From IMG/VR virus record IMGVR_UViG_3300042894_000586, positions 1 to 35,633 of that record: a DNA stretch of 35,633 bases. One strand, 5' to 3'. The translations under genes were made by a program, and so were the position numbers. The notes under the pieces are model-generated. The model searched no databases and was not told the origin of the DNA. It was given only the letters and a program-made list of their open reading frames with translations. This stretch comes from a virus. Positions 4,849 to 19,895 of this stretch are shown piece by piece (position 1 is the first letter of the stretch; every line of letters begins with the position of its first letter).

Positions 4849-5140
4849 AAAAATAGGTATGTTTTTCAACACGATCAAAGAATCGGGACAAGAACTGGAA
4901 GCTTCAAAAGAAAAAACATTGAAGCAAGACCAAATCATTCTAAACGCTTTTAAGCCAAACGGAATGAATAGTGCATGGTTGATGTATAACGCTAATGTAT
5001 TGCCTCACGGAACGCCTATAACCTCTTATCGCAGAAGTTTTAACACTCTACTTGAGCAAGGTAAGATTGAAAGAGTTGGCCAAAGAATCGGCAACCTGGA
5101 CAAAAAAGAATTTACTTATAAATTAAATTTGGAAAGTTAA
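4832..5140 (+). CDS. Putative winged-helix protein, 102 aa
   Basis: The start at ATG 4832 is preferred over an alternative upstream codon at 4784 because it gives a modest 17-base overlap. After a basic N-terminal helix, the segment from QDQIILNAFKPNG to LLEQGKIERVG and FTYKL reads like a winged helix: two helices, a recognition helix (SYRRSFNTLLEQGKI) and a beta wing. It is probably a DNA-binding regulator or replication accessory. Promoter P3 lies over its last codons. Confidence 0.6.
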   Translation: MRTTVKKIGMFFNTIKESGQELEASKEKTLKQDQIILNAFKPNGMNSAWLMYNANVLPHGTPITSYRRSFNTLLEQGKIERVGQRIGNLDKKEFTYKLNLES

Positions 5141-5158
5141 ATATTTAGTTTATATTTG
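5128..5158 (+). promoter_or_regulatory. Promoter P3, full -33/-7 match
   Basis: TTTG at 5128-5131, a 19-base spacer, and TATATTTG at 5151-5158 give a perfect match to the Bacteroidota promoter pattern. It lies across the end of the previous gene and directs transcription into the hairpin region at 5164-5257. It shares AATTTGG, TTATATTTG and a downstream AGTnTTATnA with promoter P5 at 18523. Confidence 0.8.
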
Positions 5159-5163
5159 CAGTG

Positions 5164-5257
5164 TTATGAAGGGTAGAAGACTTCAATTAAATAACAAAGA
5201 TATTAGCCACGTTTACAAGTTGCACTTCTACTGCGCTTGTGAATTGTGGCTTTTTTT
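5164..5257 (+). ncRNA. Short structured RNA or attenuated leader from P3, about 95 nt
   Basis: A perfect promoter is followed by about 95 bases with two hairpins and a T run. Hairpin 1: TGAAG (5167-5171) with CTTCA (5181-5185). Hairpin 2: AGCCAC/GTGGCT, ACAAG/CTTGT and GCA/TGC stacked with small internal loops (5205-5251), followed by TTTTTTT. The outer helix pairs without mismatch. The product could be a free small RNA, or a leader whose read-through controls the replication genes starting at 5269. A 45-codon ORF starting at 5166 crosses the structure but resembles no protein I know. Confidence 0.6.
5205..5257 (+). terminator. Terminator/attenuator hairpin before the replication operon
   Basis: AGCCAC (5205-5210) pairs with GTGGCT (5246-5251), ACAAG (5215-5219) with CTTGT (5236-5240) and GCA (5222-5224) with TGC (5232-5234). 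T5251-T5257 follow directly. It lies between promoter P3 and the ATG at 5269, so the downstream genes need read-through, antitermination or another promoter. Confidence 0.75.
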
Positions 5258-5268
5258 ATTACAAGAAA

Positions 5269-5457
5269 ATGGTAGACAAAATTTTTTCAGACAAAACAAA
5301 TGAACTCGGTTGTTATTTATTAAAAGATGGTAATTGCAATATTATCATTGGAAATCTTTACTCAGGCGCAGACGATTTTAAAGTTATTAATTTAAACAAA
5401 ATTGATATTGGGATTCTAATTGATGAACTTAAACTTATTAAATCTCAAATGCTATGA
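5269..5457 (+). CDS. Hypothetical protein, 62 aa
   Basis: I chose ATG 5269; the alternative GTG at 5239 lies inside the terminator hairpin and would add only ten residues (FFYYKK) read from its T run. The product is small, hydrophobic-polar mixed and probably soluble (GCYLLKDGNCNIIIGNLY). The family is unknown. The stop overlaps the start of the replication initiator gene. Confidence 0.6.
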   Translation: MVDKIFSDKTNELGCYLLKDGNCNIIIGNLYSGADDFKVINLNKIDIGILIDELKLIKSQML

Positions 5458-6122
5458 GCGGATGGATTAAACTACATAGGTCAATTACTGACCACTGGTT
5501 ATACACTGAAAAAAGAGTTTATAGCAGATTTGAAGCATGGAATGACATACTTTTAACTGTTAACTATTCAGATGCTAAGACAATTATTAAAGGCAAGATG
5601 TACACAATTAAACGTGGGGAAAGCATACTATCATTAGAGAGTTGGTCTAAGCGTTGGAATTGGGATAAATCTAAGGTTCGTAGGTTTTTTAGTTTGTTGC
5701 AAACTGACGCCATGATAGTTGTAAAAGGTGATTCAATAACGACACACTTAATCGTTTGTAAATATGATAGTTATCAAGGTGACCGACACGCAGATGAAAC
5801 GCAGACGAAACGCAAACGAAACGCAGACGACATTCAAACGACACCAATAGAAGAAGAAGAAGAAGGAAAGAAGAATAAAGAAGAAAAAGAAATACCGCCA
5901 TTTGATGTTTTTTTTAATTATGTTAAAACATTAAAATCATACAATCAAAAATTAGACTATGCAATTAAAGTTAAATATAATAACTGGGTAGATAATGAAT
6001 GGAAAGACGGTCATGATAATGAGATTATAAATTGGAAAAACAAAATAATGAATACAATGTCTTACATGAAGATTATTGAAAACCCAAACAAACCGCATTA
6101 CTTAAACTCATTACCAAGATAA
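5454..6122 (+). CDS. Replication initiator/replisome organizer-like protein
   Basis: The N-terminal 110 residues (GWIKLHRSITDHWLY, KRGESILSLESWSKRW, WDKSKVRRFFSLLQTDAMI, THLIVCKYDSYQ) follow the pattern of phage replication initiators with a winged-helix domain, as in DnaD/gpO-like proteins. A charged linker (about 125-147) rich in Glu and Lys leads to a C-terminal domain (about 150-222), which may contact the helicase. The gene lies directly before the primase-helicase. Its own DNA carries four 11-bp repeats (5788-5831) followed by a purine-rich tract, much as lambda O carries the lambda origin. By analogy the N-terminal domain would bind these repeats. Confidence 0.75.
   Translation: MSGWIKLHRSITDHWLYTEKRVYSRFEAWNDILLTVNYSDAKTIIKGKMYTIKRGESILSLESWSKRWNWDKSKVRRFFSLLQTDAMIVVKGDSITTHLIVCKYDSYQGDRHADETQTKRKRNADDIQTTPIEEEEEGKKNKEEKEIPPFDVFFNYVKTLKSYNQKLDYAIKVKYNNWVDNEWKDGHDNEIINWKNKIMNTMSYMKIIENPNKPHYLNSLPR
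5788..5831. repeat. Four 11-bp iterons, candidate replication origin
   Basis: Four adjacent units: ACGCAGATGAA, ACGCAGACGAA, ACGCAAACGAA, ACGCAGACGAC. Eleven is not a multiple of three, so the protein in this stretch is not repetitive; the conservation is at DNA level. An A/G-only-rich tract (about 5848-5892) follows at once. Iterons plus an easily melted purine tract inside the initiator gene is the architecture of lambdoid origins. Confidence 0.65.
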
Positions 6123-6125
6123 ATT

Positions 6126-7781
6126 ATGACATACTCAGACTACGGAATAGAACTCAAAACAAGTAAGACCTCAGGAGAGGTGCAGACTACTTGCCCAGCG
6201 TGTTCCCATGAACGCAAAAAGAAAACGGATAAATGTTTATCAGTAAATTTAGACAAACAAGTTTGGTTTTGTGCGCATTGCGGACATAAAGGTAAATTGA
6301 AACAAGAACGCAACATTGAATATAAAGTCCCTGAATGGAAGAACAAAACGGACTTGTCGGATTCAGTGATTAAGTTTTTTGAATCCCGTAAGATATCTCA
6401 AGGGACATTGCAAACGGCTAAGGTAACTGATGGAAACGAATGGATGCCAAAGGCTCAGAAGGAAATATCAACGATTCAATTCAATTACTTTAGAGATTCT
6501 CAATTAATCAATGTTAAGTACAGGGGCAAAGACAAAGATTTTAAGATGTTTAAAGATGGCGAATTAATCTTCTACAACTTAGACTGTTTAAAAACTTTTA
6601 ACGATGTCTTTGTAGTTGAGGGCGAAATGGATGCCTTGACTTTTATTGAGTGTGGCATTTTAAATGTTATCAGCGTTCCAAATGGGGCAACATTAACCAA
6701 TAACAACCTGAACTATGTAGACAATTGTTTGGATGCCTTAGAAGGTAAAAGGTTTATTTTAGCATTAGACAACGATACTCCAGGCAGAAAGTTAAGACAA
6801 GAACTTTGCGATAGGTTAGGGGTTGAAAATTGTTTCTTTTTAGAATTTGAAGGGTGCAAGGATGCAAACGAATATCTAATTAAAGAAGATGTAAATAGAT
6901 TTAGAGAAGCGGTTAAGAACGTCAAAGAGTTTCCTTTAGAGGGTAGTTTTACAATCTCAGATATTGGGGATGATATTTTTGATCTATACACAAACGGATT
7001 GGACATGGGAGTCAATACTCATATTCCTAATTTTAATTTGAGATTTGTAAAGGGATATATCACAACAGTAACGGGGATACCATCACATGGGAAGTCTGAC
7101 TTCTTAGATTACATTTGTTTGAGTTTACACCGACAAGCAGGATGGAAAGGTGCATTTTATTCCCCTGAGAATAAACCGACACAATTACACTTTAGCAAAA
7201 TGGCCCGTAAGATATTAGGTAAGTCTTGGCATGGTGATGATAAGATGACATGGGAGGAAGTTCAAAAGGTTGGGACTTATTTAGACTCTGAGGTATTTTT
7301 TATTAAACCTGAAAAGGACTTTACAATAGAATCAATATTGAAATCGGTTAAGATTTTAAAGAGAAGATTCGGTTTAGACTATTTTGTGATTGATGCTTGG
7401 AATAAACTTGAGCATAAGTACACTGGCAATGAGACTAAGTACATTGGGGAAACCTTAGACAAGATTGCTCAGTTTTGTGAGGTTGAAAATATCCATTGTT
7501 TTATTGTGGCCCATCCTACCAAGATGCAAAAGATAAAAGATTCAGACATTTATCAAGTACCAAGCTTATACGATGTGAGTGGCTCAAGTAATTTCTACAA
7601 TAAATCTGATAACGGTTTGGTAGTTTATAGGGACTTCGCTTCAGGGCAAACAATAGTGAATATTTTAAAGGTTAAATTTTCACATTGGGGCGAAACGAGT
7701 CAATCAATCTTTAGCTATGACCTGGCAAGTGGTCGATATTACAATGATGAATATACAAGAACTGAAAAATGGATAAAATAA
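6126..7781 (+). CDS. Primase-helicase (zinc ribbon, TOPRIM, RecA-like), T7 gp4/Twinkle type
   Basis: A zinc ribbon at the N-terminus (C23, C26, C49, C52) is followed by a TOPRIM primase core with EGEMD at 165-169 and ALDND around 213-217, then CKDANEYL near 244-251. From about 290 the RecA-like DnaB-type helicase follows: Walker A GIPSHGKS at 317-324, Walker B ending in Asp 423 (FVIDAW) and a VAHPTK segment near 461. At 551 residues it matches T7 gp4-like enzymes, which synthesise RNA primers and unwind the fork. It works with the initiator encoded just upstream. All key residues I looked for are present. Confidence 0.92.
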   Translation: MTYSDYGIELKTSKTSGEVQTTCPACSHERKKKTDKCLSVNLDKQVWFCAHCGHKGKLKQERNIEYKVPEWKNKTDLSDSVIKFFESRKISQGTLQTAKVTDGNEWMPKAQKEISTIQFNYFRDSQLINVKYRGKDKDFKMFKDGELIFYNLDCLKTFNDVFVVEGEMDALTFIECGILNVISVPNGATLTNNNLNYVDNCLDALEGKRFILALDNDTPGRKLRQELCDRLGVENCFFLEFEGCKDANEYLIKEDVNRFREAVKNVKEFPLEGSFTISDIGDDIFDLYTNGLDMGVNTHIPNFNLRFVKGYITTVTGIPSHGKSDFLDYICLSLHRQAGWKGAFYSPENKPTQLHFSKMARKILGKSWHGDDKMTWEEVQKVGTYLDSEVFFIKPEKDFTIESILKSVKILKRRFGLDYFVIDAWNKLEHKYTGNETKYIGETLDKIAQFCEVENIHCFIVAHPTKMQKIKDSDIYQVPSLYDVSGSSNFYNKSDNGLVVYRDFASGQTIVNILKVKFSHWGETSQSIFSYDLASGRYYNDEYTRTEKWIK

Positions 7782-7948
7782 TAGACATAATAAAAGAAAA
7801 ATTCCCGACTGCAAACTACCAACATCAAGGTAATTTGCTATGGGTTTGGGAGAACGGCAAATTAATTCAAAGATTTGATTTGAATTACTGCAAAAATTTA
7901 TTAGATTGCAACGAATTACAAACATACTTAAACAACATACAAAAATGA
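7769..7948 (+). CDS. Hypothetical protein, 59 aa
   Basis: ATG 7769 lies inside the end of the primase-helicase gene, and the TGA at 7946-7948 overlaps the ATG at 7945. The protein begins with an amphipathic helix (MDKIIDIIKEKFP), a short beta hairpin (LLWVWENGKLIQRFD), then a helix with two cysteines. The family is not recognised. Coupling on both sides supports expression with the replication genes. Confidence 0.6.
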   Translation: MDKIIDIIKEKFPTANYQHQGNLLWVWENGKLIQRFDLNYCKNLLDCNELQTYLNNIQK

Positions 7949-8418
7949 CAACTCAAGCAGACTCAAAACAGTACACCGAAAGTCAGTATAGAAGACTATA
8001 CAACACTTTACTAAATGACCATCACAATTTAAAAACAAAGTTTACAAGATTAGAAAATGAAAACAAAGTACTTCAGAATAAATTAAAGAAAGAAGATAAG
8101 ATTGAAATACCTGCAAATTTTCAAAGAATCAAAGATGTAATAAACGAACACTTTGGAGTTGATATAGATGTAAAGGTAAGGATGCGACCTTTTGTAATAG
8201 CAAGAGTGGTCTATTATCAAATAATGAGAAGCTCGACACAATTAAGTTATAGGTCGATTGCAGATACATTAAGCCTTAGACAAGATCACGCTACCCTGAT
8301 ATCTAGTTTAAGCAACCATGCAGATTGGTATCAGTTTGATAAAAAATACAAGAGAGATTTTGAAGCCATCATGTTAGAATTAAACTCACAAAATGAAACA
8401 AGTCCTAATAACAATTAA
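7945..8418 (+). CDS. DnaA domain IV-like DNA-binding protein, 157 aa
   Basis: ATG 7945 overlaps the previous stop and is preferred over a non-ATG codon at 7906. Residues about 20-60 form a coiled coil (KFTRLENENKVLQNKLKKED). The C-terminal third (YRSIADTLSLRQDHATLISSL) resembles the DnaA domain IV helix-turn-helix, where the signature RDHSTV reads the DnaA box. There is no ATPase domain. It may bind the phage or host origin, or compete with host DnaA. A coiled coil plus the DNA-binding part suggests a dimer or tether. Confidence 0.65.
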   Translation: MTTQADSKQYTESQYRRLYNTLLNDHHNLKTKFTRLENENKVLQNKLKKEDKIEIPANFQRIKDVINEHFGVDIDVKVRMRPFVIARVVYYQIMRSSTQLSYRSIADTLSLRQDHATLISSLSNHADWYQFDKKYKRDFEAIMLELNSQNETSPNNN

Positions 8419-18522: not shown

Positions 18523-18553
18523 TTTGGTTTTGTTGAAAATAGTATTATATTTG
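18523..18553 (+). promoter_or_regulatory. Promoter P5, full -33/-7 match
   Basis: TTTG at 18523-18526, a 19-base spacer and TATATTTG at 18546-18553. It starts one base after the previous stop codon. It shares AATTTGG, TTATATTTG and downstream AGTnTTATnA with P3. It faces the hairpin unit at 18555-18627 in the gap 18523-18665. Confidence 0.8.
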
Positions 18554-18554
18554 A

Positions 18555-18627
18555 AGTCTTATAATTGTTCATATAAGATTGAAAAGGAGAATAGGTCAGA
18601 CTTGCAAGGTGCTGACCTATTTTTTTA
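18555..18627 (+). ncRNA. Candidate small RNA, about 70 nt, with two hairpins
   Basis: Right after P5 a 9-bp stem forms between AGTCTTATA (18555-18563) and TATAAGATT (18572-18580), with one G-U pair and an 8-base loop. A short linker GAAAAGGAGA follows, then a perfect 9-bp terminator stem (18591-18620) and a T run. No open reading frame of note lies inside. Promoter, two hairpins and terminator in about 100 bases, wholly between two genes, describe a self-contained small RNA. The single-stranded AAGGAG between stems is striking in a genome that does not use Shine-Dalgarno sites. Confidence 0.65.
18591..18626 (+). terminator. Rho-independent terminator of the P5 unit
   Basis: ATAGGTCAG (18591-18599) and CTGACCTAT (18612-18620) are exact complements around a 12-base loop; TTTTTT follows at 18621-18626. 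The loop contains the palindrome CTTGCAAG. Confidence 0.85.
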
Positions 18628-18649
18628 TGTCGGTATTTTTGCCATTAAA

Positions 18650-18665: not shown

Positions 18666-19895
18666 ATGGCAGTTACATTCATTCAACAACCTGACTTATT
18701 CGTGAGTGGTTTCGACCCTATCATCTATTTAGCTTCGAGTTCACAAACTACACAAACGAACTTTAGATACCGTATCCAAGTCTTAGACGCTTCAGCTAAT
18801 GTAATCACGGAACTTAGAAAACCTGCTTACTATGCTGATGGTACTGTTGACTTAGATGCTCATAGAATCATTGAGAACTATTTGTCATACGATATGACTA
18901 ATCTAATTGCAGGTTCAGTAGGGTTTAAGACTGGAGTCAATGTCTACAAAAAGTTCAAGATAAACATACGGGAGGAATACGGAGCGGTTGTAAGTGGTTA
19001 TGCCAGTGCCGAGAGTACTTACATTTACGCTATTAATTCGGCTCAGACTTACCTAAAACAAATTAACAGCCCTATTGATGACTTGGTTTATAAAGGCATC
19101 CCGACAACCTTTGGGACATTCTTAACTAATCAACCATCGACCATTGATATAAGAGTCGGGGATAGTTACGAGCTTGGATTCTTAAACTATGCGACAAACG
19201 GGACTGACCATATGAGGGTTAAGACCTACGATGAAAGTGGAACGCTACTTAAAAGTTCAACCTTTGCCAATGCTTGGGTCGCTGACACAACGGACAAGGA
19301 ACACTTCTTAAGTGTCTTGGTAGGCCCTGCAAACTTAAACTCATGGACTGTTGCAAGTGGTTCGGCTCAACCTATGATTGCGGATTCAGTAGCAAAGTAT
19401 GAAATCAGTTTTGAAAACAACACCCCGACAATAGTTTCAAATACTCTGACTTTTAAAATAGATAGGGAGTGTACACGGGATGGGAACTACAATCGTTTGT
19501 TTTGGCTTAATCCTTTAGGTCGAATGGATGCGTTTAACTTCACCCAAATAGCTGATGACAATATAACCGTACAAAGTAGTAATTATAATCGTTTACAAGG
19601 CACAAGGACAAGTTCAGGGATTACATTCAATACTTACTCACACGAAAGGAGTAACTTCTTTAATTCGTCTAAACAAAAATACACCCTTAACAGTGGTTAT
19701 GTGAATAGCGAAACAAGTCTTTGGCTTAAGGAGTTGGTTCAATCGCCTTTGATTTATATGATAATCGGAGGGCAGTTTGTAGCGGTCAACATTTTAACAA
19801 CTGAATACCAGGCTAAGAGTACAATCAAAGAAAAACTATTTAATGTGACTATGGAAGTGGAATTGAGTGCAGACACTAAAAGACAAAGACTATAA
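18666..19895 (+). CDS. Tail protein, 409 aa (distal-tail-like position)
   Basis: A beta-rich protein without membrane segments or signal. The start (VTFIQQPDLFVSGFDPIIYLASS) and the NPLGRMDAF ... HERSNFFNSSKQKYTLNSG region are of a type seen in tail genes of phages of Bacteroidota. It directly precedes and overlaps (TAATG) the large tail protein gene, which suggests a baseplate or distal tail part. The precise role is inferred from position. Confidence 0.6.
   Translation: MAVTFIQQPDLFVSGFDPIIYLASSSQTTQTNFRYRIQVLDASANVITELRKPAYYADGTVDLDAHRIIENYLSYDMTNLIAGSVGFKTGVNVYKKFKINIREEYGAVVSGYASAESTYIYAINSAQTYLKQINSPIDDLVYKGIPTTFGTFLTNQPSTIDIRVGDSYELGFLNYATNGTDHMRVKTYDESGTLLKSSTFANAWVADTTDKEHFLSVLVGPANLNSWTVASGSAQPMIADSVAKYEISFENNTPTIVSNTLTFKIDRECTRDGNYNRLFWLNPLGRMDAFNFTQIADDNITVQSSNYNRLQGTRTSSGITFNTYSHERSNFFNSSKQKYTLNSGYVNSETSLWLKELVQSPLIYMIIGGQFVAVNILTTEYQAKSTIKEKLFNVTMEVELSADTKRQRL

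Follow-up and report, generated by a model that had tools for sequence, protein, structure and literature searches.

The window, that is, the whole stretch of DNA analysed here (35,633 nucleotides), is a complete IMG/VR virus record, and its replication genes are preceded by a compact locus made of a promoter, two hairpins and a run of T (Table 1). All these elements, as well as the ATG at 5269, lie where a preliminary description of this DNA had placed them, and the distance from promoter to terminator hairpin, which it had put at about 45 bases, is 46 bases when counted from the TATATTTG box to the terminator stem; the T run is separated from the ATG by 11 bases. That description did not include the key feature, the one that defines the RNA family: the first loop and the terminator loop are perfectly complementary over 7 nt (K1 and K2, the kissing partners). 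The upstream gene of the window ends inside the RNA promoter. Beyond the primase, the protein encoded at 7906-8418 has a weak match to the DnaA C-terminal domain (Bac_DnaA_C), and Cellulophaga phi10:1 also carries a gene annotated as 'DnaA protein'.

Table 1. Features of the RNA locus and of the genes that follow it in the window.
Feature	Position	Strand	Basis or remark
Bacteroidota-type promoter TTTG-N19-TATATTTG	5128..5158	+	sequence; TTTG 5128-5131, TATATTTG 5151-5158
Hairpin 1, outer stem GTTAT/ATAAC, inner stem TGAAG/CTTCA	5162..5196	+	fold; adjoins the predicted 5' end
K1 GTAGAAG, loop 1, kissing partner 1	5173..5179	+	exact complement of K2; covaries with K2 in relatives
A/U-rich linker joining the two hairpins	5186..5204	+	relatives often AAARAAUUAUU
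Intrinsic terminator hairpin AGCCAC...GTGGCT with apical GCA/UGC sub-stem	5205..5251	+	fold and covariation
K2 CTTCTAC, terminator apical loop, kissing partner 2	5225..5231	+	exact complement of K1; covariation
Seven T, predicted transcript end	5251..5257	+	sequence
Small ORF, 62 aa	5269..5457	+	first gene past the T run; other genes instead in relatives
DnaD-like helicase loader	5454..6122	+	phrog_2514, E 3.9e-25
DNA primase/helicase (TOPRIM + DnaB_C)	6126..7781	+	phrog_239, E 1.7e-89; Pfam

When positions 5158-5262 are folded, both hairpins are predicted at -27.5 kcal/mol, against a mean of -19.1 for shuffled sequences (z -2.83; 1 of 200 shuffles as low), a statistic that by itself, without comparison, is suggestive. 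The consensus terminator scan, which accepts short loops and unbroken stems only, did not flag the terminator of the window. An ORF of 45 codons that starts at 5166 and overlaps the RNA was considered as a leader peptide and is not conserved in relatives (it has 7 codons in L002 and 2 in L024). It is the comparison with relatives that makes it certain that the structure in the window is real.

What lies upstream of the DnaD gene was compared in 32 viral relatives. In nearly all relatives, TAnnTTTG or a near variant occupies the position that matches the promoter. In phage after phage, loop 1 and the apical loop of the terminator are complementary to each other while their letters differ each time, as in the pairs GTAGAAG/CTTCTAC (the window), GTAGGAT/ATCCTAC, GGTCTGAC/GTCAGACC, CTCTCAC/GTGAGAG and GCGTAGGA/TCCTACGC. 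A structural descriptor that combines the promoter, hairpin 1, the kiss and the terminator was scanned over 823 kb, and it yielded 48 non-redundant matches on the plus strand and 2 on the minus strand, compared with 1-5 matches in three dinucleotide shuffles scanned on both strands. Units can also be gathered without using the kiss: among 61 promoter-plus-strong-terminator units collected in this way, a perfect loop complement of at least 6 nt is present in 48 and one of at least 7 nt in 41, while loops paired across loci as a control reach these lengths in 7.2% and 2.35% of cases, respectively. The class as scanned numbers 63 units, whose kisses comprise 50 different sequences, and a GU/AC anchor sought within the kiss appeared as a tendency only.

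Two alignments were used to measure covariation, one of 16 sequences (A2) and one of 7 sequences from the window's own subgroup (A4). For the whole structure in A2, 93.5% of the cells are paired and 22 pairs show double changes; for the kiss alone the figure is 99.1%, and six of its seven pairs have changed on both sides. In none of 500 shuffles is the share of paired cells, the number of double changes or the covariation score as high as in the kiss, although 49 of the 500 match its count of further pair types, and when the kiss is slid out of register the paired cells fall to 22-44%. In A4 the kiss is paired in 98% of the cells, with double changes in five of seven pairs, and the inner stem of hairpin 1 covaries with 100% of the cells paired. 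The terminator stems, in which the preliminary description had proposed to look for compensatory changes by covariance analysis, do covary in the relatives. Since the kiss is absent from the RNAalifold structure, it cannot have been produced by the RNAalifold fit. What these alignments show is a pairing that is kept while its letters change from virus to virus. As for its geometry, the linker (median 16.5 nt in 54 members) does not scale with the length of the terminator (r = -0.17), so this test lends no support to an intramolecular arrangement and leaves room for an intermolecular kiss as the alternative.

The RNA is found in 24 of 24 loci in which DnaD identity is at least 60% and enough upstream sequence is available (21 by the scan, L022 by the covariance model R1 with 88 bits, and L004 and L016 by eye). 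Scan units become rarer as DnaD identity falls, with 17 of 43 loci at 45-59% and 5 of 15 below 45%. The RNA is also present, unannotated, in cultured phages, where it sits in the intergenic gap ahead of the replication genes: the Flavobacterium phages lillamy9-1, hemulen6-1, hattifnatt9-1, mumin6-1, snusmum6-1 and morran9-1, Cellulophaga phi10:1, Tenacibaculum JQ, and elemoB 14-3B, elemoA 7-9A, elemoF 6-3D and, by eye, elemoA 2-5C. Several cultured Bacteroidota phages (L208-L220) have unannotated gaps of about 150-250 nt directly before the replication module, and the RNA fills them. In two cultured phages a tiny hypothetical CDS has been annotated across or into the RNA (976-1119 in L216, morran gp042; 1050-1145 in L215, snusmum gp042), and both are probably mis-annotations.

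When 395 Bacteroidota genomes were searched with model R1, the single match fell in a prophage-like locus with a DnaD gene; judged with this model, which covers one subgroup only, the RNA looks like a phage element. A weak match in Marinilabilia was rejected as a family member, being an ordinary terminator. Searches against Rfam 15 at the gathering threshold gave no family match in the window or its relatives (the relatives gave tRNAs only), and relaxing the threshold to E values up to 10 over positions 5000-5400 returned nothing relevant, so that the earlier remark that no RNA of this structure has been described holds for Rfam 15. The window itself has no megablast-level match among cultured phages, and a nucleotide search returned weak partial matches on the promoter side or none. 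Searching with the DnaD protein led mostly to Firmicutes and proteobacterial phages among the matches listed, and searching with the primase reached Bacteroidota isolates.

Variation around the basic plan was also observed. The RNAs of L096, L099, L103, L109, L110 and L112 are variants whose linker contains an additional small hairpin (AGGTTTATTTTAACCT and similar), and a middle hairpin is also seen in L102, L132 and L124. Contig L006 contains two kissing RNAs (at 1648 and 5086) with different kiss sequences. Behind the second come, in this order, an HNH homing-type endonuclease, an unknown gene of 120 aa and an ERF-like gene. The space that separates the RNA from the DnaD-like gene is often the exact site at which HNH, GIY-YIG-like or nuclease-like genes are inserted (L041, L048, L092, L017, L043, L009, L051).

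The way in which the RNA is joined to the genes behind it bears on its function. From the T run to the next ATG there is a median of 15 nt (range 0-46 in 54 loci), and a TAnnTTTG promoter box occurs in this gap in only one of the 54. Because so short a gap almost never holds a promoter, its anatomy suggests that the replication module is reached by read-through only. In the cultured Lillamyvirus and Muminvirus a separate terminator ends the upstream unit just before the RNA promoter, and the leader therefore opens a new unit; transcription from upstream could also feed the replication module. If the terminator is strong, most members should release an RNA that measures 78-93 nt when counted as far as the T run. 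The preliminary description had offered the release of an RNA of about 95 nt and the gating of the replication genes by read-through as alternatives, and the anatomy supports both together, given the predicted length of the RNA and the gap that is promoter-free in 53 of 54 loci.

Taken together, these observations are best accounted for by a kissing-loop terminator RNA, a leader whose terminator is clamped by the kiss and which gates the replication module while releasing an RNA of about 95 nt, an explanation that we consider somewhat more probable than all others combined. The promoter just upstream would start the RNA, the 6-11 nt loop of the 5' hairpin would pair with the apical loop of the 3' intrinsic-terminator hairpin, and the terminator would thus be formed and held as one half of a closed pseudoknot, a pairing for which covariation is the evidence. 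Most polymerases would then halt at the T run and the compact RNA would be released, so that the replication module, some 15 nt farther on and with no promoter in the gap, would be transcribed only by those polymerases that read through. From the anatomy we infer both the termination and the gating, by which the RNA may meter or time the expression of the replication genes. With regard to the switch, pairing of the 5' arm of the terminator with upstream sequence, in a nascent RNA that ends after K2, averages 0.285, against 0.345 with shuffled upstream sequence (n=55), and with no excess of such pairing a classical antiterminator is not conserved. Since no alternative antiterminator fold is conserved, we favour as the switch either a kiss that is lost or an antitermination factor of the phage or the host; the terminator would be constitutively clamped, and leakage or factor-driven bypass would feed the replication genes.

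The kissing sequences fall into alleles, and the RNA is much more divergent than the sequence on either side of it. In the window and L002, the 400 nt downstream are 100% identical, the 160 nt upstream 91% and the RNAs 82%; the corresponding values are 99, 96 and 79% for L008 and L010, and 92, 87 and 21% for L002 and L003, where the whole RNA has been replaced. A survey of 22 phages with a recognisable window-type YqaJ gave a scan match in 19, distributed over five alleles (GTAGAAG, GTAGGAT, GGTGAAG, GTACGAG and TCCGTCTCAAA). L263 has a sixth, TCGCAC, recognised by eye, the contig of L254 ends too early to judge, and the RNA is absent from L274. An identical RNA allele can precede different genes, and the same pair of 62-aa and DnaD genes stands behind three alleles, combinations which imply that RNA and module recombine freely. 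In L253-L273, DnaD-like, helicase or other initiator-like replication genes take each other's place behind the RNA, in phages whose YqaJ proteins are 90-96% identical. Three alleles occur among the elemo phages of a single host strain, Flavobacterium BAL314: TGAGAGC, GTGGAGG and, recognised by eye, GTGAGATG. Candidate causes of the alleles are the exchange of cassettes from a large pool and selection that is diversifying or frequency-dependent.

These alleles are the main argument for a trans-acting RNA of immunity or dosage, in which the loops of the released RNA would bind K1 or K2 in another, nascent copy of a leader with an identical allele and shift its termination, so that related phages or extra copies would sense each other; such an activity would supplement the gate and not replace it. 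The excess divergence of the RNA in the three comparisons above, the separate alleles of phages whose YqaJ is 90-96% identical and the differing elemo phages of BAL314 all speak for it. However, pairing of K1 with K2 inside one RNA should quench pairing in trans, neither 7-mer recurs in the flanks (6 and 7 matches, compared with 4.7 and 5.4 expected, and hence no enriched outside targets), no integrase is present among the genes searched in the window phage, and cassette exchange by itself could yield the alleles; we regard this activity as unlikely. Rather improbable, in our view, is a free-standing phage small RNA, for instance an anti-defence decoy or a protein-binding RNA, for which the folded molecule would be the product and the position before replication genes secondary. 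Such an RNA would have its own promoter and terminator, a compact fold, a rapid diversification like that of an arms race and alleles that precede unrelated genes, all of which are observed, but the constant, short, promoter-free gap to the ATG would silence the replication genes unless read-through were designed in, and there is no Rfam relative.

A classical attenuator of the pT181/pIP501 type, in which an antisense RNA decides between a terminator fold and an antiterminator fold that exclude each other, would explain a leader terminator ahead of replication genes as well as kissing loops. It is nevertheless very improbable, given a 5' arm no more sequestered than with shuffled upstream sequence and a complement that lies within the RNA itself rather than in an antisense transcript. 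On the minus strand of the window there is a TATCTTTG box, which the corresponding letters of L002 break (by eye). That the locus is an ordinary terminator behind a promoter, its loop complement arising by chance, has a negligible probability: in its favour the single-sequence fold is only moderately unusual, but covariation refutes it, the descriptor counts and the kiss-blind units also stand against it, and two ordinary promoter-terminator units of the window (18546 and 28201) have no kiss.

Several known systems resemble the kissing-clamped leader in place or logic. The CI RNA of satellite phage P4 (seqA/seqB/seqC) is described in PMC4825925 (citing Sabbattini 1995 and Briani 2000) as a small RNA that derives from the replication operon's leader and belongs to an immunity where premature termination keeps the replication genes off and RNA-RNA complementarity sets the specificity. 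The leader position before replication genes is alike, a fit known here from anatomy; the P4 RNA pairs with separate sites outside itself, whereas the kissing RNA holds both partners inside, one of them in the terminator loop. For IsrK of Gifsy-1, a prophage promoter gives rise to a small RNA that ends by termination and to an mRNA made by read-through (PMC4825925). IsrK, in contrast, has its own read-through transcript as its target in trans. The c4 antisense RNA gave no Rfam match, either at the gathering threshold in the window and relatives or at E values up to 10 over 5000-5400. We know of no internal kiss between a loop and a terminator in IsrK or c4. In the pT181 and pIP501 attenuators, orthogonal variants arise from changed kissing loops (PMC4878617). 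They share the leader terminator before a replication gene and the kissing contacts, but depend on an antisense RNA as well as on an antiterminator, and an antiterminator was sought and not found in the kissing RNA. Tandem pseudoknot repeats followed by a toxin gene, as in the ToxI-like type III antitoxin RNAs, are absent from the locus, which has a single unit followed by replication, homing-type or unknown genes. Bacteroidota small RNAs with intrinsic terminators share the TAnnTTTG promoter and the terminator end; within a limited literature search, we know of no report that their terminator loop kisses a 5' hairpin.

The kissing RNA is thus most like P4 CI, IsrK and the plasmid attenuators in place and logic, but it lacks those of their defining features that were tested (outside targets and an antiterminator) and is not classed with them. 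Its own order of elements is promoter, hairpin 1, linker, a terminator whose loop is complementary to loop 1, and then the gene start, and to our knowledge an architecture in which a terminator is clamped by its own 5' hairpin is undescribed. As far as searched, this is an undescribed class of phage leader RNA, which would exert a control already known in kind, that of phage leader terminators.

The window contains a second unit at 18523-18629, with a TTTG-N19-TATATTTG promoter, a hairpin and a terminator, ahead of a 409-aa gene at 18666. This unit has no kiss, its terminator loop holds CTTGCAAG, which is not conserved, and only part of the relatives have the unit.

Little is known of early-gene control in the phages of Bacteroidota. 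The present analysis points to a widespread unannotated RNA at the gate of the replication genes in many of these phages, including the cultured Lillamyvirus, Muminvirus, Elemovirus, phi10:1 and Tenacibaculum JQ. A speculative extension, which we put forward as possible but doubtful, is that the self-kissing terminator RNA may be an allele-specific device of self-recognition among competing phages, one that gates replication and, through the RNA set free, detects other copies of its allele, with frequency-dependent selection keeping many orthogonal alleles. The natural allele series is a ready set of orthogonal kissing pairs, and the existence of cultured phages with different alleles on one host strain makes the question of recognition in trans directly testable.
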